From contig JACNLA010000028.1 in assembly GCA_014381745.1 (NCBI GenBank), positions 124,001 through 188,000 on the forward strand: DNA of 64,000 nucleotides, in the 5' to 3' direction. Of this stretch, positions 51,517 through 61,261 are shown in pieces. The translations under genes were made by a program, and so were the position numbers. The DNA comes from Actinomycetota bacterium. Lineage in GTDB: Bacteria > Actinomycetota > Acidimicrobiia > Acidimicrobiales > MedAcidi-G1. How positions within the stretch are numbered: position 1 is the stretch's first letter; the number at the start of each line of letters is the position of its first letter. The notes below the pieces were generated by a model. The model was not told the origin of the DNA. It saw only the letters and a list, made by a program, of their open reading frames with translations, and did not search any database.

Positions 51517-52875
51517 TCAGAGGGAGTCGATGAGCTTCTGTACACGCTCATCAGCAGAGCGGAACGGGTCCTTGCAGAGAACGGTGCGCTGAGCCTGATC
51601 GTTCAACTTGAGGTGGACCCAGTCAACCGTGTAGTCCCGCTTGCGTTCCTTGGCGCGGCGAATGAACTCTCCACGGAGACGAGCTCGTGTGGTGCTTGGA
51701 GCATTCGCCTTCGCATCCTCAACCGCCGCGTCGGTCGTCGTCCTCTCCATGAGGCCGCGTTCCTGCATCCTGTAGAAGAGCCCCCGTCGACGGTCGACAT
51801 CGTGGTACTGGAGGTCGACAAGAGCCACCGCCGGATCGGACAACGGCAGGTTGTGGCGCTCCATGTAACCGTGGATGAGGTGATGCTTCGCCACCCAGTC
51901 GCACTCCGCGGCCAGCTCCAGCGGATCCCGGGCAATCGCCTCAAGGCAGTGCTGCCACATCGAGAGGACCTTCGTCTCCTCAGCGCTCATGTCACGGTGA
52001 TCCGCATATCGGAGCGCTCGCTCCAGAAACTCTGTCTGCATGTCGAGTGCCGTCAACTCGCGACCGTTTGAGAGGCGAACCGTTCTTCGACAGGTGGGAT
52101 CGTGGCTGATCTCACGAATGGCGCGGATCGGGTTCTCAAGGGTCATGTCGCGCATTACCACGCTCGGATCCTCGAGCATCCGCAGAAGAATCCCGCAGGC
52201 CCCCACCTTCAGGAAGGAGGCGTACTCGCTCATGTTCGAATCGCCCACGATCACATGCAACCGGCGGAACCTCTCAGCGTCGGCGTGGGGTTCATCCCTG
52301 GAGTTGATGATTGGCCTCGACCGGGTGGTGGCGCTCGAGACGCCCTCCCAGATGTGCTCAGACCGCTGGCTGATGCAGTACATGGCCCCCCGGGCCGTCT
52401 GTAGCACCTTCCCCGCTCCTGCGTAGATCTGGCGACTCACAAGGAAGGGAATAAGGGTCTCCGCGTACTCGGCGGTCTCATCCCGACGCGTGGTCATGTA
52501 GTTCTCGTGACATCCGTAGGAGTTGCCGGCCGAGTCGGTGTTGTTTTTGAAGAGGAATATCTCACCGTTGATCCCTTCCTCCCGGAGTCGTTCCTCCGCG
52601 GATCCAAGCAGTTGCTCGAGGATCCTCTCCCCTGCCTTGTCGTGGGTGACCACATCGTGCACCGAGTCACATTCGGGCGTGGCGTACTCGGGGTGGGAAC
52701 CGACGTCCAGGTAGAGGCGTGCACCGTTGACGAGAAATACGTTCGAGCTTCGCCCCCAGTCGACGACCTTTCTGAAAAGGTATCTGGCTACCTCATCTGG
52801 GCTGAGACGACGTTGGCCATCGAGGGTGCAGGTGACGCCAAACTCGTTCTCTATTCCATAGATGCGACGCTCCAC
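51517..52875 (-). CDS. pafA: Pup-protein ligase PafA
   Basis: From the GTG at 52875 the protein is 452 residues, the same length as M. tuberculosis PafA. The glutamine-synthetase-like catalytic start [13 protein letters not shown] holds the metal Glu. [19 protein letters not shown] and [13 protein letters not shown] are the ATP/metal-binding signatures, and [13 protein letters not shown] follows. It joins the C-terminal Glu of Pup to substrate lysines. The gene order prcB-prcA-pafA-pafB-pafC is the classical one. Confidence 0.96.
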
Positions 52876-52888
52876 AGGCCGCCTACCG

Positions 52889-53566
52889 TCAGCCGAGGAG
52901 AGCGGCCAACGCCTCACCCTCTATGCGCCTGAACGCCCGCCTGCCGTTCTGGCGGGCGAGCACTGCCACCTCCAGGTCGTCGGGGCTGAGCGTCCGATCG
53001 GGCCCTGCCATGGCCGCAACAGCGACCCCGAGGGCGGCACTCAGATCCGCCTCCGGCGCCCATGACTCGGCAAGCCGCTCTCGGATCGCCTCGGCCTCAC
53101 CGCCGATCACGACGTGGCTTGTCGTGTCCATGACGGTGCCGTCGTAGAGAAGGTGAAAGAGACGGTCGCCGCCCGACTCGGTTCCCATCTCGGCTATGAG
53201 CATCTCCACCTCAAGCGGCTTCATCTCGTGGGTGAAGTACTGACCAAGGATCTGTGCGTACTGGTTGGCAAGCCAGCGGGCATCAACGTCGGCACGGCTG
53301 TAGGAGTAGCCCTTCAGGTCGGCGTGGCGCACGCCGGCGATCCGGAGCTGGTCGAACTCGTTGTACTTGCCGACGCCCATGAAGCCGATTCGGTCGTAGA
53401 TCTCGCTGACCTTCCTGAGGGTGCTGGATGGGTTCTCAGCACAAAGCAGGACCCCCTCTCCGTAGGTGCTGGAGACTGCAGCACGGCCACGTGCAATGCC
53501 CTTGCGTGCGTAGTCCGCACGGTCCTTCATCACCTGTTCCGGCGATACATACATCGGAACGGTCAT
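52889..53566 (-). CDS. prcA: 20S proteasome alpha subunit
   Basis: From ATG 53566 the protein has 225 residues. The RBS AGGGAG stands about ten bases before, and the start gives the family N-terminus [27 protein letters not shown]. The [16 protein letters not shown] and [10 protein letters not shown] blocks are the alpha fold; there is no catalytic Thr. The N-terminal segment forms the gate in the ring. A longer GTG start at 53617 would overlap prcB and is less likely. Confidence 0.95.
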
Positions 53567-53603
53567 GGTCTCGTGCTCCCTAGGTTGGCGCTGGAGGTAG
53601 TCA

Positions 53604-54404
53604 TCAGGCACCGTCACTGGACCGGTTGAGGAGGCTTCTGGTCAACTCGGCCACCTCGTCGTCTGGGATCCGAGTGAAGCCTGATGATGTGATTGTCGCC
53701 AGAACGGGGTAGATCCCCCGGACAAGATCGGGTCCGCCGGTTGCACTGTCCTCGTCGGCCGCCTGGTAGAGAGCCTCTATGGCCAGGGTCTGTGCCTCGT
53801 CTGCACCCATGCCCTCCCTGAAGCGGAGTTTCATGACGGTGGTGGCATGGAGGCTGCCTGACCCTGTGGCGGCGTGGTCCTGCTCCTCGTAGCGTCCACC
53901 GGTGATGTCGAACTGGAATAGCCGGCCGCGGTCCTCCCTTTCGTCAAAGCCGGCAAACAGAGGAACCACGGCAAGTCCCATCATCGCCGCCGGCAGATGG
54001 GAACGCAGCATCAGCGTCAGCTGGTTTGCCTTGCCATCGAGGCTGAGCTGGTTCCCCTCGACCTTTTCGTAGTGTTCCAGTTGAAGTTGGAAGAGCCTCA
54101 CCATCTCCATTGCCGGTCCCGCAGCTCCGGCAATGGCCACGCCGGACGCACTGTCGGCCGGGAACACCTTTTCCATGGTTCTGTGGCTGATCAGATGGCC
54201 GCTTGTTGCACGTCTGTCGCCGGCCATGACAACACCCTCGGCGCAACGAATCGCAAGGACGGTTGTTGCGTGGGTCAGCCCTTCGAGCGTGGGCCCTGCC
54301 GGCGCTGACGGACCGGCATCGGATCCGCCCATGCCAAGCCGGCCCAGCAATCCGACGAAGCTGGGGCCCGGGTCTTCTGCGGGGGTGAATATCGGAAGGG
54401 TCAC
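53604..54404 (-). CDS. prcB: 20S proteasome beta subunit
   Basis: A propeptide of about 46 residues from GTG 54404 (or 60 from GTG 54446, overlapping pup) is followed by the mature N-terminus. The cleavage point is GLTHA/TTVLAI: Thr1, with Ala and not Gly at -1. Asp17 (MAGDRRA) and Lys33 (TMEKVF) of the catalytic set are in place. It is the proteolytic subunit of the actinobacterial 20S particle. Start assignment is uncertain. Confidence 0.93.
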   Translation of the reverse strand: MTLPIFTPAEDPGPSFVGLLGRLGMGGSDAGPSAPAGPTLEGLTHATTVLAIRCAEGVVMAGDRRATSGHLISHRTMEKVFPADSASGVAIAGAAGPAMEMVRLFQLQLEHYEKVEGNQLSLDGKANQLTLMLRSHLPAAMMGLAVVPLFAGFDEREDRGRLFQFDITGGRYEEQDHAATGSGSLHATTVMKLRFREGMGADEAQTLAIEALYQAADEDSATGGPDLVRGIYPVLATITSSGFTRIPDDEVAELTRSLLNRSSDGA

Positions 54405-54435
54405 GGTTGGGAGGCTAACCCGGTCGAGAGGTCGG

Positions 54436-54639
54436 CTACTCCCCACCCTTTTGGATGTAGTTCTTCACGAACTCCTCGGCGTTGGACTCCAAGACCTCGT
54501 CGATCTCGTCAAGAAGATCATCCAACTCCGCCTTGAGGCGGTCCTTGCCCTGACCTGTCGCCTGAGGTGCTCCGGCATCCACGGGCTCGGCCGGGTCGCT
54601 CTCTCTGCGGGCAGGTCGCTGCTGTTCCTGTTCGGCCAT
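54436..54639 (-). CDS. pup: Prokaryotic ubiquitin-like protein Pup
   Basis: A 67-residue protein, disordered in the first half and helical in the second (LKAELDDLLDEIDEVLESNAEEF), ending VKNYIQKGGE. The C-terminus is Glu, so it can be ligated by PafA without the deamidation that the GGQ forms in mycobacteria need. The coiled helix is the segment that binds the Arc/Mpa coiled coil. It lies between dop and prcB. Confidence 0.97.
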   Translation of the reverse strand: MAEQEQQRPARRESDPAEPVDAGAPQATGQGKDRLKAELDDLLDEIDEVLESNAEEFVKNYIQKGGE

Positions 54640-54673
54640 CTCGTCTCCTCAAATGGTGGGCAGGAAGGGTTGC

Positions 54674-56185
54674 TCAGGCTGACAGACGGCTGAGCAGTTC
54701 CGGCACTGTCCGGCACTCGTCAAGGAGCGTACCCACGTGGTCTCTGGTGCCACGTATCGGCTCCATCATCGGTATCCGTCGGAGCGTGTTGTCACCCAGG
54801 TCGAACACCATCGAGTCCCAGTTGGCTGCAACGATCTCGTCCGGCCACCTCTGAAGGCAGCGACCCCGGAAATAGGCCCTGGTGTCCTCGGGGGGCTGCT
54901 CCATCGCAACGGTCACGGCACCTAAGTCGACCAGAGTCTCTGCACCCACGCGTGCGAACAGCGATCGCTCAGGCCTGAGATCGTGGTATTGCAGGTCAAG
55001 GGCTGCGAGGCGGGCATCGCCGGGCTCCAACTCGTGACGCTCCCGCAGCCCATCGAGGAGGTGCCGCTTTGTGATCCAGTCCACAACCCCTACGAGGTCG
55101 GACGGGTCGGTCTCGAGAGATGCCAGAACGCCTTCCCAGCGGGTGAGCACGTCATCAGCCACCGATCCGCCGATCAGGTCGGTTCCATGTTCGAGAACAT
55201 ACTTCTGTGCCTGATCCAGGAACTCCCACTGCAAATCGACGGCTGTCGCAGTTCGTCCGTCACCCAACATCAACGGCTGTTTCAGCCCGGTGTCCCATGA
55301 AACGGCCTGCAGGGACCGCACCGGGTCTGCAATCAGGAGAGAGGGGTCCAGGAAGTCAGCTTCGACCATTGCCAGCACGATTGCCGTGGTGCCCAGCTTC
55401 AAGAAGGTGGCCACCTCACAGAGGTTGGCATCGCCGACGATCACGTGAAGGCGTCTGTAGAGCGCGGGATCCGCATGGGGTTCATCGCGCGTATTGATGA
55501 TGGGCCTCTTGAGGGTGGTCTCGAGGCCCACCTCCTCTTCGAAGAAGTCTGCTCGCTGGGTGAGCTGAAATGGCACGGCTCCGGTCGGTATCCATGGCGC
55601 CTCGCAGCCCACCTTTCCGGCCCCCGTGAACACCTGCCGGGTGACGAAGTGGGTCGTAGCGTGTTGCACGATCCGAGCGAATGGGGTCGTCCGATCCATC
55701 AGGTAATTCTCGTGGCAGCCGTAGCTGTTTCCCTTTCCGTCCGAGTTGTTCTTGTAGATGACGAGTTCCTCACCGTCTGGGAGCACCTGGTTCGCCGCCC
55801 TCATCGACTCGACCACGATCTGCTCTGCCGCACGATCGTGACGTAGAACAGACATGGCATCCGCACACTCAGGGGTACTCAACTCAGGATGTGCATGATC
55901 AACGTAGTAACGGGCACCGTTTGTCAGGACGGCATTGACCAGATGTGTCTCGACCTCGGGGGCCATGCCTCCGATGTGGCTGAAACCCCGGACGTCGTTC
56001 TGGGGTGTTTCGTCTATGAAGTCCCAGCCGACCCGGGGCGAACCCGGGCCGGCGCCGGGCTCGGATTGCGTTCCCAGGTAGGCGTTGATCAGCAGAGAAG
56101 ATGCGCTGATGGGATTGGAGTCATCCACGCCACGGTGGACGATGCCGTACTCGGTTTCGATTCCGAGAATCTTTGGAACAGGCAT
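54674..56185 (-). CDS. dop: Depupylase/deamidase Dop
   Basis: A 503-residue homologue of PafA with the start VPKILGIETEYGIVHRG. The Dop loop (about residues 40-75, NDVRGFSHIGG) distinguishes it from Paf[20 protein letters not shown] and RPIINTRDEPHAD are the nucleotide-binding blocks. Because Pup here already ends in Glu, its main activity is presumably removal of Pup from substrates. It follows arc with a 52-base gap. Confidence 0.95.
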   Translation of the reverse strand: MPVPKILGIETEYGIVHRGVDDSNPISASSLLINAYLGTQSEPGAGPGSPRVGWDFIDETPQNDVRGFSHIGGMAPEVETHLVNAVLTNGARYYVDHAHPELSTPECADAMSVLRHDRAAEQIVVESMRAANQVLPDGEELVIYKNNSDGKGNSYGCHENYLMDRTTPFARIVQHATTHFVTRQVFTGAGKVGCEAPWIPTGAVPFQLTQRADFFEEEVGLETTLKRPIINTRDEPHADPALYRRLHVIVGDANLCEVATFLKLGTTAIVLAMVEADFLDPSLLIADPVRSLQAVSWDTGLKQPLMLGDGRTATAVDLQWEFLDQAQKYVLEHGTDLIGGSVADDVLTRWEGVLASLETDPSDLVGVVDWITKRHLLDGLRERHELEPGDARLAALDLQYHDLRPERSLFARVGAETLVDLGAVTVAMEQPPEDTRAYFRGRCLQRWPDEIVAANWDSMVFDLGDNTLRRIPMMEPIRGTRDHVGTLLDECRTVPELLSRLSA

Positions 56186-56237
56186 GCGCGGACCCTAGCG
56201 GTAAGGCCTTCCGGGTTGCGGGTGGGCCTCCGGCGGC

Positions 56238-57980
56238 TCAGAGGTACTGGCCCGTACCGACACCGTCGATCGTTCGGCCGCCGCCATCCTCTTCGGTACC
56301 GGAAATGAGGGTTCGGACAAAGACGATTCTCTCGCCTTTCTTTCCGGAGATCCTTGCCCAGTCGTCGGGATTGGTCGTGTTCGGCAGGTCTTCGTGCTCC
56401 TTGAACTCCTGTCGGACCGCCCGGACAAGATCATCGGTACGGATACCTCTGTGACCGCCGGCAAGCTCACGCTTGATTGCCAACTTCTTGGCCCTACGGA
56501 CAATGTTCTCGATCATCGCCCCTGAGGCAAAGTCCCGGAAATAGAGGACCTCCTGATCGCCATTCTGGTAGGTGACCTCAAGAAAGCGGTTTCTCTCATC
56601 GTCGGAATACATCGCCGAAACTGCCTCGTCGATCATGGCCCGGACCGCCTTCTCGCGATCACCACCGCCCACGCTCTCAACAAGCTCGGCGTCGAGCGGA
56701 AGCTCAGCGAGCAGGTAGCGGCTGAAGATCTGGCTGGCTGCCATCTCGTCGGGCCGTTCGATCTTGATCTTGACGTCCAGGCGGCCGGGTCGCAGGATCG
56801 CCGGATCAATGAGGTCCTCGCGATTGGATGCCCCGATGACGATCACGTTCCGGAGAGCCTCAACACCGTCGATCTCGGCAAGCAACTGGGGGACGATCGT
56901 GGACTCGATGTCAGAGCTGATGCCTGTACCGCGGGTGCGAAACAGTGACTCCATCTCGTCGAAGAACACGATCACCGGCCAGCCCTGTTCGGACTTCTCT
57001 CTGGCGCGCTGAAACACAAGGCGAATCTGCCGTTCGGTCTCCCCGACGTACTTGTTGAGCAGTTCAGGACCCTTGATGTTCAGAAAGAAGCTTCTGGCAT
57101 CACGGTCACCCGATACGTCGGCAACTTTGTTGGCGAGCGAGTTGGCGACCGCCTTGGCTATCAAGGTCTTTCCGCAGCCGGGTGGGCCGTAGAGAAGAAT
57201 GCCCTTGGGCGCCGGCAGGTCGTAGTCGGCAAACATCGCCCTGTGGAGAAACGGCAGCTCTACGGCATCGACGATCATCTCGATCTGCTGGGCCAGACCC
57301 CCAACATGTTCGTAGGTCACATTTGGAACCTCTTCGAGAACAAGGTCCTGAACCTCGGGCCGAGGGAGGCGTTCCAAGATGAGACCCGCCCTGGGATCCA
57401 GCAGAGCGGAGTCACCGCTTCTGAGAGGCCCTTCCTGAACCGTTGATGACAGCTCGACAACACGTTCCTCGTCGGCACGACCAACCACGAGGGCACGCAC
57501 CCCGTCGCCCAGCAGTTCCTTCACCGTCACGACCTCGCCGGTCGATTCGCCAGACCTGGAGAGGACAACGCTCATGGACTCGTTCAGGACGACCTCCTGA
57601 CCGGGGTTCAGGGCCTGGGCCAGGTCCGGGTGGACCCCTACCCGCATCTTGCGTCCCCCTGAATGAACATCAACCGAGCCGTCCTCGTTTAGCCCAACCA
57701 CAGTCCCATAGGCCGCTGGGGGCTGGGTCAGCTTCTCGACCTCTTCGCGGAGAATCGCTATTCGTTCGCGTGCTGTCTCGAGCGTGGCGTTCAGCTTCTG
57801 GTTGCGAGCCGTTGCGCTGGCGAGATCCTTCTGCACGGAGCGGATCTCGTTCTCGAACTTTTCAATCCGAGCCGGTGCACCCTCGAGCCTCCTGCGCAGC
57901 TCGCTGATCTCAGCCTCGAGAGCGGACGGGTCGCCCCAGCCATCACCTGAATCCTGCAAGCCTTCATCTGTCGGTGCCAC
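56238..57980 (-). CDS. arc: Proteasome-associated AAA ATPase Arc/Mpa
   Basis: A 580-residue protein with an N-terminal coiled coil (about residues 20-75), an OB domain pair, and an AAA module with GPPGCGKT (Walker A) and [12 protein letters not shown] (Walker B). The C-terminus is TGQYL, the penultimate-Tyr tail that opens the 20S gate. It unfolds pupylated substrates. It is the first gene of the leftward string; the 247-base region upstream, which holds a strong hairpin, is shared with the divergent ferredoxin gene. Confidence 0.96.
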
Positions 57981-58526: not shown

Positions 58527-59303
58527 CTACCTGGCCCGGCAGTCCCCCGGATCCACCGCCACCAGCCCCGCATTGCGTGCCGAGGCCAACAGCGGTTTGA
58601 TCTCTGAGGCCTGGACCGCGTAGGCGACCTTTACTCCACCTCTTGTCCGCGAGAACAAGACACCAACCACCGCACCGTTTACGTCAACCACAGGGCCACC
58701 TGAGTTTCCCGAGTTGACAACAGCCTCGATCTCGAGGGCGTTCCGTCCGCCGCCTGGCTCACCGTAGATGTCGTCGCCAACCGCCCTGACGGGTCGAATG
58801 ATCCGGGCGATGTCAGTTTCGCGCTCGCCCTTGTCGCTGTACGCGAGGACGGCAACCATCTGTCCCTCGGCGCCAGCATCTAAGGCGAGGGGTCTGGGCA
58901 GGTCGATGTCCACTTCCAGAAGCGCAAGGTCGGAGACAGGATCGAAGGCGACAACAGATGCGACGCTGGTCACCTCACCCACCGTCACCTCTGGAGCATC
59001 CAGGCCTGCAATCACGTGAGCCGATGTCACGACCAGATTCGTCGAGACCACGAATCCACTGCCTACCTGGGATGCGATGCATCCCAGCCCGTTGACCCGG
59101 ACAACCGACTGCCAGGTCCGTTCGATCAGTGCCTCGTCTGGAGCAACTGGGACCGAAGCGTGGGTTGGCGGCGCGCTGGTCGTCGCCACGACCGGAACAG
59201 GAGGATCGACGAGTGGTGGTGTGACGACCGGCTGTCCGCAGGCGCTCAACAAGGCGGCCGATGCCAGGAGCGCCGGGAACAAACCGGCCGATGGCCGCGT
59301 CAC
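58527..59303 (-). CDS. Trypsin-like serine protease lipoprotein
   Basis: From GTG 59303, which overlaps the trmI stop by four bases, the protein has 258 residues. The N-terminus has a signal with lipobox LLSACG. The chymotrypsin-fold triad is visible: TSAHV (His), SDLALLEVD (Asp) and NSGNSGGPV (Ser). No PDZ domain is present. It is like the trypsin-like (HtrA/MarP-type) periplasmic proteases. The lipid anchor puts it outside the membrane, which makes its coupling to a tRNA methylase gene surprising. Confidence 0.85.
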   Translation of the reverse strand: MTRPSAGLFPALLASAALLSACGQPVVTPPLVDPPVPVVATTSAPPTHASVPVAPDEALIERTWQSVVRVNGLGCIASQVGSGFVVSTNLVVTSAHVIAGLDAPEVTVGEVTSVASVVAFDPVSDLALLEVDIDLPRPLALDAGAEGQMVAVLAYSDKGERETDIARIIRPVRAVGDDIYGEPGGGRNALEIEAVVNSGNSGGPVVDVNGAVVGVLFSRTRGGVKVAYAVQASEIKPLLASARNAGLVAVDPGDCRAR

Positions 59304-60073
59304 GACCCGAGGAGACGTGCGTGGCTCAAGAAGCCCGTGTGGGCGACCATCCTGTGGTCCGGCCTCACAGCCTGACCCTCTATGTGCCAACTTCTGTTCA
59401 GAACCTCGATGGTCTCGGCGAACTCAAAGCCGTTGGAGTCAAGGGCCTCGCGAAACTTCACAGCCTGGAGAATGCTCGGCGTGTAGGCAACGATGATTCC
59501 TCCGGCCCGCAATGCCCCTGCGGCATGGGGAACCACCTGCCACGGCTCCGGAAGGTCCAACACCACTCGATCCAGATCAGAACCGGAGATGCCGTCGTAT
59601 GCATCGCGGATCTCCACCTTGTAGCGGTCAAGGGCATCTGCCCCCAGCATGGTCGCCACGTTGTGACGGGCACGCTCTACGAAGTCCTCGCGGATGTCGT
59701 ATCCCGTGATGGAAGCACCAGAGCGCAGCATGGTCATCGAGAGTGCCCCTGAGCCAACCCCCGATTCGAACACCCTGGATCCGGGAAATATGTCGGCCAG
59801 CATGAGGAGTGGCCCCAGGTCCTTGGGATAGATGACCTGGGCTCCGCGTGGCATCTTCAGGACGTAGTCGGAGAGCGTTGGCCGGAAAGCAACGAAGGAA
59901 CTCCCGCGGCTTGATTTCACGACAGAGCCGTCCTGTGACCCGATGAGGTCACCGTGGTTCAACACCCCTGTATGGGAGTGAAACTCACCGCCCTCCTCAA
60001 GGGTCACGAGATAGCGCCGCTTCTTAGCGTCTACCAGGAGGACCTGATCCCCCGCTGTCAGGGAGCGGCTCAT
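59300..60073 (-). CDS. trmI: tRNA (adenine-58-N1)-methyltransferase TrmI
   Basis: From ATG 60073 the protein has 257 residues. The TrmI fold is seen in GSRVFESGVGSGALSMTM (SAM motif I), the N-terminal YPKDLGPLLMLADIFPG block, and VVLDLPEPWQVV (motif IV with the DLPxPW catalytic sequence). It makes m1A58 in the tRNA T loop. The start overlaps the ttuA-like stop by four bases (ATGA). In mycobacteria trmI also lies next to the proteasome genes. Confidence 0.93.
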   Translation of the reverse strand: MSRSLTAGDQVLLVDAKKRRYLVTLEEGGEFHSHTGVLNHGDLIGSQDGSVVKSSRGSSFVAFRPTLSDYVLKMPRGAQVIYPKDLGPLLMLADIFPGSRVFESGVGSGALSMTMLRSGASITGYDIREDFVERARHNVATMLGADALDRYKVEIRDAYDGISGSDLDRVVLDLPEPWQVVPHAAGALRAGGIIVAYTPSILQAVKFREALDSNGFEFAETIEVLNRSWHIEGQAVRPDHRMVAHTGFLSHARLLGS

Positions 60074-61047
60074 GTGGTGGCACTCCCCTGCCCGTTTGAG
60101 CGGGTCGCCCCGAGCTCCACGGGCACGGGTTCTGGTGCAGCCGGGAGTCTCCCGCCGGCGCGTTCCATGAGGCGACAGAACGCACACACCGCACTGTTTC
60201 CGGGGGCACCACACCGATCACATCTGGTCGGACGTCCGGCGGAGTCTCCGGCACCGGCAAAGAGCACAGATGTCCGTTCCTGGAAGCCGAAGTAGAAGCT
60301 GTGTTTCGTGCCAGGCGAGCGGTCCTCGATGCCGTTCAGGGCCTCCTTGTAGGCAAGGTGTCTGTTTCCCTCGGCCATGGGGCACTCCTCAACCATGTAG
60401 TCGATGCCCCTGAGGACGCAGTAGGCGGCCATCTCGCGTTCCCCCAACCGGACCAGCGGTTTGATCTTCTTTGGGAATCCGTCGCCGGCAGGCAGAACCG
60501 GGCGTTGTCTGCCCAGATACTCATGTTCCCAACGCAGGACGTTGCCGAGGAGTACGGCCGCCTCGTCATCCAGATTGTGGCCTGTCGCCAACGCGTCATA
60601 TGAGCCGCGCGTGGCCGCTTCGTCGAATAGATGTCGTTTGGTGAGACCGCACGCGCTGCACGGTGCGCGACGAGCAGCGCGTGAGCCTCCCGGTATGTCG
60701 AAGCCGTACTCGGAGCTGATGTCAACCTCCTCGAGGTTGAGGCCACGTTCTTTGGCGAAGCCGGTGGCGAACCGGCCGGACTCGCTGCTGTAGTCCCCGA
60801 TTCCAAGACCGAGGTAGAGCCCATCTGTCTCGTAGCCGAGTTGAAGCAGGATGTCCCAAAGGGCAAGCGAGTCCTTGCCGCCAGATACTGCCACCAGGAC
60901 GCGATCCCCCGGTTCAAGCATCCGGTGATCGTGGATTGCCTTCTCAACCTGGTCCCTGCACAGCTTCAGGAAGTGCTCTTCACAGAAGTTAGCGTTGTGT
61001 CGGCGGACATCGACGACAGCGGGTCCCCGACAGACACGACACTTCAT
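60070..61047 (-). CDS. ttuA: TtuA/TtcA-like tRNA 2-thiolation enzyme
   Basis: From ATG 61047 the protein has 325 residues. An N-terminal zinc-finger region (CRVCRGP...CEEHF), the PP-loop SGGKDSLALW, the CSACG pair and the EECPMAEG Cys (the three Fe-S ligands of TtuA, C-x2-C plus C), GHNLDDEAA, and a C-terminal zinc finger CDRCGAP...CAFC are all present. TtuA thiolates the position 54 uridine of the T loop and takes sulfur from a ubiquitin-like carrier. A carrier gene lies just upstream, which favours TtuA over TtcA. Confidence 0.82.
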   Translation of the reverse strand: MKCRVCRGPAVVDVRRHNANFCEEHFLKLCRDQVEKAIHDHRMLEPGDRVLVAVSGGKDSLALWDILLQLGYETDGLYLGLGIGDYSSESGRFATGFAKERGLNLEEVDISSEYGFDIPGGSRAARRAPCSACGLTKRHLFDEAATRGSYDALATGHNLDDEAAVLLGNVLRWEHEYLGRQRPVLPAGDGFPKKIKPLVRLGEREMAAYCVLRGIDYMVEECPMAEGNRHLAYKEALNGIEDRSPGTKHSFYFGFQERTSVLFAGAGDSAGRPTRCDRCGAPGNSAVCAFCRLMERAGGRLPAAPEPVPVELGATRSNGQGSATT

Positions 61048-61060
61048 GACGCTTTGTCCG

Positions 61061-61261
61061 TCATGACCGGCCGCCCGAGATGACCGGACGGATCTCAATG
61101 TGATCGTCCGGACCGAGCATTGCGTCTCCTGGAACGAGGGTTCCATCGCGGATAACGAGAACCGTGTCCCGCGGTATTTCGAGTTTGGAGAGCAGGGCGC
61201 TCACCGCCATTGGCCCGTCCATCGACACGACCCTCGTCGGATTTCTCAACTCCACCTTCAC
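61061..61261 (-). CDS. MoaD/ThiS/TtuB-like ubiquitin-fold sulfur carrier
   Basis: A 66-residue beta-grasp protein: MKVELRNPTRVV, SALLSKLEIPRDTVLVIRDG, and an IEIRPVISGGRS end. The double Gly that carriers use as thiocarboxylate is present but two residues (Arg-Ser) follow. In TtuB, MoaD and ThiS the Gly-Gly is normally terminal. Some carriers (QbsE type) have a tail removed by a JAMM protease. It lies five bases after a small hydrophobic gene and 13 bases before ttuA. Confidence 0.8.
   Translation of the reverse strand: MKVELRNPTRVVSMDGPMAVSALLSKLEIPRDTVLVIRDGTLVPGDAMLGPDDHIEIRPVISGGRS

Follow-up and report, generated by a model that had tools for sequence, protein, structure and literature searches.

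A thiocarboxylate can be formed on a sulfur carrier protein only if the carrier has a free glycine carboxylate. HcyS/HcyD of Wolinella provide one precedent for carriers made with a cap, that is with residues beyond the C-terminal Gly-Gly; we found no account of HcyS/HcyD processing in the open-licence literature. QbsE is uncapped by QbsD. Streptomyces platensis has two capped carriers, PtmS2 (GG-MV) and PtmS3 (GG-C), both of which are inferred to need a single JAMM protease, PtmS1, deletion of which leads to loss of thio-product formation (PMC6006322). Carriers may also be joined at Gly-Gly to an enzyme that uses their sulfur. The activity of Mycobacterium tuberculosis MoaX requires a cut after Gly-Gly (PMC4326299), and the MoaD-MoaE fusion of Deinococcus is cut by a JAMM protease (PMC8832034). 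The JAMM protease Mec hydrolyzes CysO-Cys, cutting after Gly-Gly (PMC3227635).

In Thermus the carrier TtuB serves the tRNA thiolase TtuA. Efficient thiolation of U54 in this genus depends on m1A58 (PMC7912444), and when T. thermophilus loses a JAMM homologue, its TtuB conjugates are aberrant and its tRNA thiouridine falls to about half (PMC3980101). In vitro, TtuA can draw on free sulfide, and it may do so in organisms without TtuB (PMC6225789).

Here we describe a ttuB-ttuA-trmI operon from a 64,000-nucleotide stretch of actinomycetotal DNA, which we call the window. The locus resembles Thermus TtuB/TtuA/TtuC (PDB 5gha, 5b4e, and 5ztb) in having a homologous carrier and a TtuA with the same zinc fingers, PP-loop, and catalytic cysteines, and it resembles the Thermus 2-thiouridine-54 system in having a TrmI-type gene after that for TtuA. 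However, Thermus TtuB ends in a free Gly-Gly, whereas the carriers described here are capped or fused to TtuA, and several of their hosts are non-thermophiles by name (marine and sludge lineages). As with QbsE/QbsD and PtmS2/PtmS3/PtmS1, one or two residues follow Gly-Gly, the genome has a single JAMM gene, and capped carriers coexist with uncapped ones; those carriers serve thiocarboxylic acid natural products, whereas the present one sits with TtuA, and ptmS2 lies in a cluster with its JAMM gene, whereas here the JAMM gene is elsewhere. The fused forms are like MoaX and the Deinococcus MoaD-MoaE protein, except that the partner is TtuA rather than MoaE. On the basis of sequence comparison, we consider it likely that TtuB is made as a capped pro-carrier that would be trimmed after Gly-Gly, probably by the JAMM protease of the genome, then activated by the rhodanese-MoeB E1 and used by TtuA.

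The Carrier Gene and Its C-terminal Cap

The carrier has the β-grasp fold signature of the ThiS family, with a Pfam ThiS match above the cut-off (1.3e-6), and the best match of the carrier-family profile was the solved T. thermophilus TtuB (PDB 5ztb, 2.5e-8). Coordinates are given in Table 1. Translation of window:61061-61261:- gives VKVELRNPTRVVSMDGPMAVSALLSKLEIPRDTVLVIRDGTLVPGDAMLGPDDHIEIRPVISGGRS*, with the C terminus EIRPVISGGRS followed by TGA. The frame could be aligned end to end with 29 homologues, with Leu-5, Arg-6, Pro-8, Arg-10, Gly-16, Val-60, Ser-62, Gly-63, and Gly-64 invariant in the alignment, showing that it is a real gene. The initial annotation, which read this frame as ending ISGGRS and TGA, was thus correct. 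As translated, the carrier lacks a free C-terminal Gly-Gly and has two residues beyond it. Nor do its close relatives all end in Gly-Gly: 29 of the first 30 homologues extend past ISGG, and with the window carrier itself set aside the count in the alignment is 28 of 29. A sequencing error or an isolated variant, to which that annotation would have attributed the tail had the relatives lacked one, is ruled out by the presence of residues after Gly-Gly at 140 of 155 loci (below). The window cap itself is slightly odd, being the only one of 140 extended carriers with Arg straight after Gly-Gly.

Table 1. Features of the carrier locus in the window
Feature	Position	Strand	Remarks
TtuB-type sulfur carrier, 66 amino acids	61061..61261	-	GTG start, TGA stop; ends ISGG-RS
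Cap codons CGG TCA (Arg-Ser)	61064..61069	-	After Gly-Gly codons GGC GGC
Six-codon frame ATG ACG GAC AAA GCG TCA TGA (MTDKAS)	61044..61064	-	Between carrier and ttuA
TtuA, tRNA 2-thiouridine synthetase (U54 type)	60070..61047	-	PDB 5b4e/5gha, 3e-89
TrmI-type tRNA (m1A58) methyltransferase	59300..60073	-	Pfam GCD14, 9.5e-24; TrmI-like_N, 1.5e-20
Complete Pup-proteasome locus	51517-57980	-	Adjoins the TtuB-TtuA-TrmI operon

Gene Neighborhood

The gene immediately downstream of the carrier encodes TtuA, both in the window and in nearly all homologous loci, and the two proteins co-occur in nearly every genome. The match to solved TtuA spans the length of the window protein. It has a Pfam TtuA_LIM_N match and scores 1e-72 with the NCBIfam TtuA model, which is under the cut-off of that model. 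Alignment to PDB 5b4e showed that the N- and C-terminal zinc fingers, the PP-loop SGGKDS, and all three catalytic cysteines (in CSACGLTK and EECP) are present.

The TrmI start overlaps the TtuA stop (ATGA), and a TrmI gene lies on the same strand at 164 of 174 homologous TtuA loci. Together with the m1A58 requirement of the Thermus system, this partnership means that the gene set of the window fits U54 thiolation. The protein is also nearer to TtuA models than to NcsA models. A role for TtuA as a U34 thiolase is unlikely, since MnmA, which acts at U34, is encoded elsewhere in the genome. The position thiolated would most likely be U54.

The six-codon frame between the two genes has ATGA overlaps with both the carrier stop and the TtuA start. 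Deletion of 17 nucleotides (61044-61060) would give back the 4-nucleotide carrier/ttuA overlap that is usual in relatives and is found at 74 of 123 split loci, which suggests that the frame arose from a small insertion. Probably, therefore, a 17-nucleotide insertion broke the carrier/ttuA overlap and left the six-codon frame behind. Among the split loci, the 4-nucleotide overlap occurs with 52 of 60 two-residue caps versus none of 15 uncapped carriers. This association makes gene overlap a plausible reason for retention of the cap, which is probably a tolerated by-product of the overlapping ends and starts of the two genes rather than a switch. The idea that the Gly-Gly codons act as the ttuA ribosome-binding site, with the tail as a spacer, was weak: the first Gly codon is GGA in 16% of cases versus 9% elsewhere in the carrier and TtuA.

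The neighboring Pup-proteasome locus comprises genes for the proteasome ATPase Mpa/ARC, Dop, Pup, the β and α subunits, and PafA. The C terminus of Pup is Gly-Gly-Glu, so deamidation should be unnecessary. Two ubiquitin-like Gly-Gly systems are thus adjacent.

Sequences That Follow Gly-Gly

The first homologues were supplemented with loci from scanned public genomes and from 396 phylum genomes, giving 155 distinct loci (order and phylum) with an intact Gly-Gly. The carrier ends in a free Gly-Gly at 15 of these, has 1-20 extra residues at 109, and is fused to TtuA at 31. Two extra residues are most common (60 loci), followed by three to twenty (26) and one (23). Seven of the one-residue caps are Cys, like the end of CysO-Cys. 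In the 31 fusions the frame continues into TtuA without a stop, leaving Gly-Gly internal. Fusions are present in single-contig genomes (G110, G177, and G284) and so are not assembly artifacts. The fused proteins retain ISGG (MSGG or VSGG in a few) and all TtuA motifs; ISGG hardly varies across the carriers as a whole, internal occurrences included.

The residue that follows Gly-Gly is constrained. Ala accounts for 90 of the 140 extended carriers, and 125 have one of Ala, Ser, Cys, Gly, or Thr; these five residues make up 33% of TtuA residues overall. The position beyond it is much freer: of 37 carriers less than 70% identical, 27 have Ala at the first position after Gly-Gly and 6 have it at the second. 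Such a pattern suggests that a cut is made after Gly-Gly. When one fusion was modeled with AlphaFold2 (mean pLDDT 85.6), two confident domains were obtained, and between them lies the single internal segment predicted with pLDDT below 50, residues 61-65, ISGGA.

As a control we considered 71 other ThiS-family carriers (CysO-, MoaD-, and ThiS-like) in 40 of these genomes. Of these, 40 stop at Gly-Gly, versus 15 of 155 for the TtuA-linked carrier. The remaining 31 have residues after Gly-Gly, in 22 cases as tails of 1 to 29 residues and in 9 as long or fused extensions, so a tail is not exclusive to the TtuA-linked carrier. Residues after Gly-Gly are widely tolerated in the phylum and are far more frequent in the TtuA-linked carrier. 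The long or fused extensions include apparent MoaD-MoaE fusions with internal Gly-Gly, seen at L228, L232, L234, L239, and L247, in genomes that also have TtuB-TtuA fusions.

Evolutionary Lability of the Cap and the Fusion

Five end states (free, one, two, three or more residues, and fused) were mapped on a TtuA tree of 150 rows and required 35 changes. Free versus extended ends required 8 changes, and fused versus split genes required 7, of which 5 are forced by well supported branches. These counts carry no direction and the related sequences are not independent, so we use them solely to show lability after Gly-Gly, with Gly-Gly itself kept. On this comparison, the sequence after Gly-Gly is evolutionarily labile and Gly-Gly is stable.

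This lability bears on whether the tail is a latch, such that regulated trimming would control tRNA thiolation. The chemistry allows it, because a capped carrier cannot be adenylated, and the halved tRNA thiouridine of T. thermophilus lacking the JAMM homologue (PMC3980101) is in keeping with it. We regard a latch as very improbable, however, since the tail drifts freely in length and sequence, uncapped relatives are nested among capped ones, and caps are also found on other carriers of the same genomes. The suggestion in the initial annotation that the tail holds the carrier inactive is not borne out for the same reasons: the tail is unconserved, and tailed and tailless relatives interleave on the tree.

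Four genomes of the genus to which the window belongs (G001, G003, G005, and G006) lack both carrier and TtuA and retain the JAMM gene. The carrier-TtuA pair is thus lost or gained as a unit within one genus.

Candidate Protease and E1

One Prok-JAB (JAMM) protein was detected in the genome (C8:2373-2735), with the upstream Glu and an intact HSH-x7-SxxD motif; a genome-wide look for JAMM metalloproteases, as proposed in the initial annotation, thus yielded a single candidate with its catalytic motif intact. The gene is Mec-like and lies directly upstream of that for cysteine synthase, as in Mec-CysO-CysM of M. tuberculosis. In contrast to the M. tuberculosis arrangement, mec and cysM have no cysO between them, and a CysO-like carrier ending PAVAGG is encoded upstream of groEL. 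In many relatives a few hundred bases separate the JAMM gene from one that is CysO-like. The JAMM gene is also away from the TtuA-linked carrier (contig C8 versus C22).

Of the phylum genomes, 66 of the 68 that encode the carrier also encode a JAMM protein, versus 198 of the 328 that lack the carrier (Fisher p = 4e-11, uncorrected for kinship); for close relatives the corresponding figures are 30 of 32 and 14 of 29. This co-occurrence is suggestive only, as JAMM proteins are common in genomes without the carrier and the comparison is confounded by kinship. The best counterexample is G052, a genome 94% complete in which the carrier is capped (GG-DR) and no JAMM protein was detected; G289 and G046, which are less complete, likewise have a capped carrier and no detected JAMM. 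A search of the JAMM-less genomes for a PF01398-type JAB protease found none.

Genome G052 would be explained if a protease other than JAMM, such as a housekeeping peptidase or one linked to the proteasome, cut the cap after Gly-Gly, and the paper on M. tuberculosis MoaX names no protease for its cut (PMC4326299). The bacterial examples that we found with a named protease are nevertheless all JAMM enzymes (PMC8832034, PMC6006322), and this, with the near-universal presence of JAMM in the carrier genomes of the phylum sample, makes a different protease unlikely. We are more confident that a cut is made than that JAMM makes it.

The genome has a single E1, a rhodanese-MoeB fusion. Its presence is relevant to the proposal that the carrier is not a thiocarboxylate donor, in which case TtuA would take sulfide directly (as it does in vitro; PMC6225789) and the carrier domain would help TtuA to fold, to dock, or to be regulated. 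The persistence of carrier and TtuA together in fused forms could be read in this way. Docking has no need, however, of a near-invariant ISGG that is kept even internally, and the occurrence of carrier and TtuA together in nearly every genome and of an E1 with a rhodanese domain also argue against direct sulfide use, which we judge to be quite improbable.

Discussion

The reading that we prefer is of a pro-carrier processed after Gly-Gly. The Arg-Ser cap would block the C-terminal carboxylate of the TtuB precursor. A protease would recognize the β-grasp domain and the ISGG end and cut after the second Gly regardless of whether one or two residues, a longer extension, or an entire TtuA comes next. 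This protease is likely to be the sole JAMM metalloprotease of the genome, the Mec-like protein encoded beside cysteine synthase, which would act on other carriers with caps and on carrier adducts as well. The carboxylate thus exposed would be adenylated and thiocarboxylated by the rhodanese-MoeB fusion, the only E1 of the genome. TtuA would use the carrier sulfur for tRNA thiolation, with U54 as the most likely site, near A58, the target of the co-encoded TrmI. Provided that the carrier acts in the usual manner, the need for a free Gly carboxylate means that extended and fused carriers must be cut.

Removal of the tail before adenylation by a QbsE-type JAMM cut had been put forward in the initial annotation, and this proposal is now well supported on comparative grounds: a near-invariant ISGG is followed by tails of every length or by a whole enzyme, the next residue is constrained, the genome has one JAMM protein, and capped carriers are known from the literature to need a JAMM protease. 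Against it we count the capped carrier of G052, the unique Arg of the window cap, the distance of the JAMM gene from the carrier, and the possible use of free sulfide by TtuA in organisms without TtuB (PMC6225789).

More broadly, there is a reasonably good case that TtuB is made as a precursor across the phylum, and in several lineages as a TtuB-TtuA polyprotein needing a JAMM cut after Gly-Gly, with repeated switching among the capped, overlapping, and fused arrangements. Capped carriers as a kind are already known, whereas a TtuB with a cap and a TtuB-TtuA polyprotein both look new; no description of either was found in the open-licence literature.

The TtuA/TtuB/TrmI set (window 59300-61261; also L080, L081, L120, and L129, from Aquihabitans and Microthrix) is common in lineages that are apparently mesophilic, as judged by name or source (ocean water and activated sludge), and has been reviewed as a thermophile trait. 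A gene set usually discussed for thermophiles is thereby placed in marine and sludge Actinomycetota. A prediction of the proposed processing is that tRNA thiolation and cysteine synthesis are linked through one JAMM enzyme.

Sulfur carriers of this kind are seen as the ancestors of ubiquitin. If the processing is as we propose, the TtuB-TtuA polyprotein would be a counterpart of the eukaryotic fusions of ubiquitin to ribosomal proteins. The series that runs from one extra residue to a full TtuA fusion, with a constant cut site, would then be natural material for tracing how ubiquitin-like proteins acquired their dependence on a processing protease.
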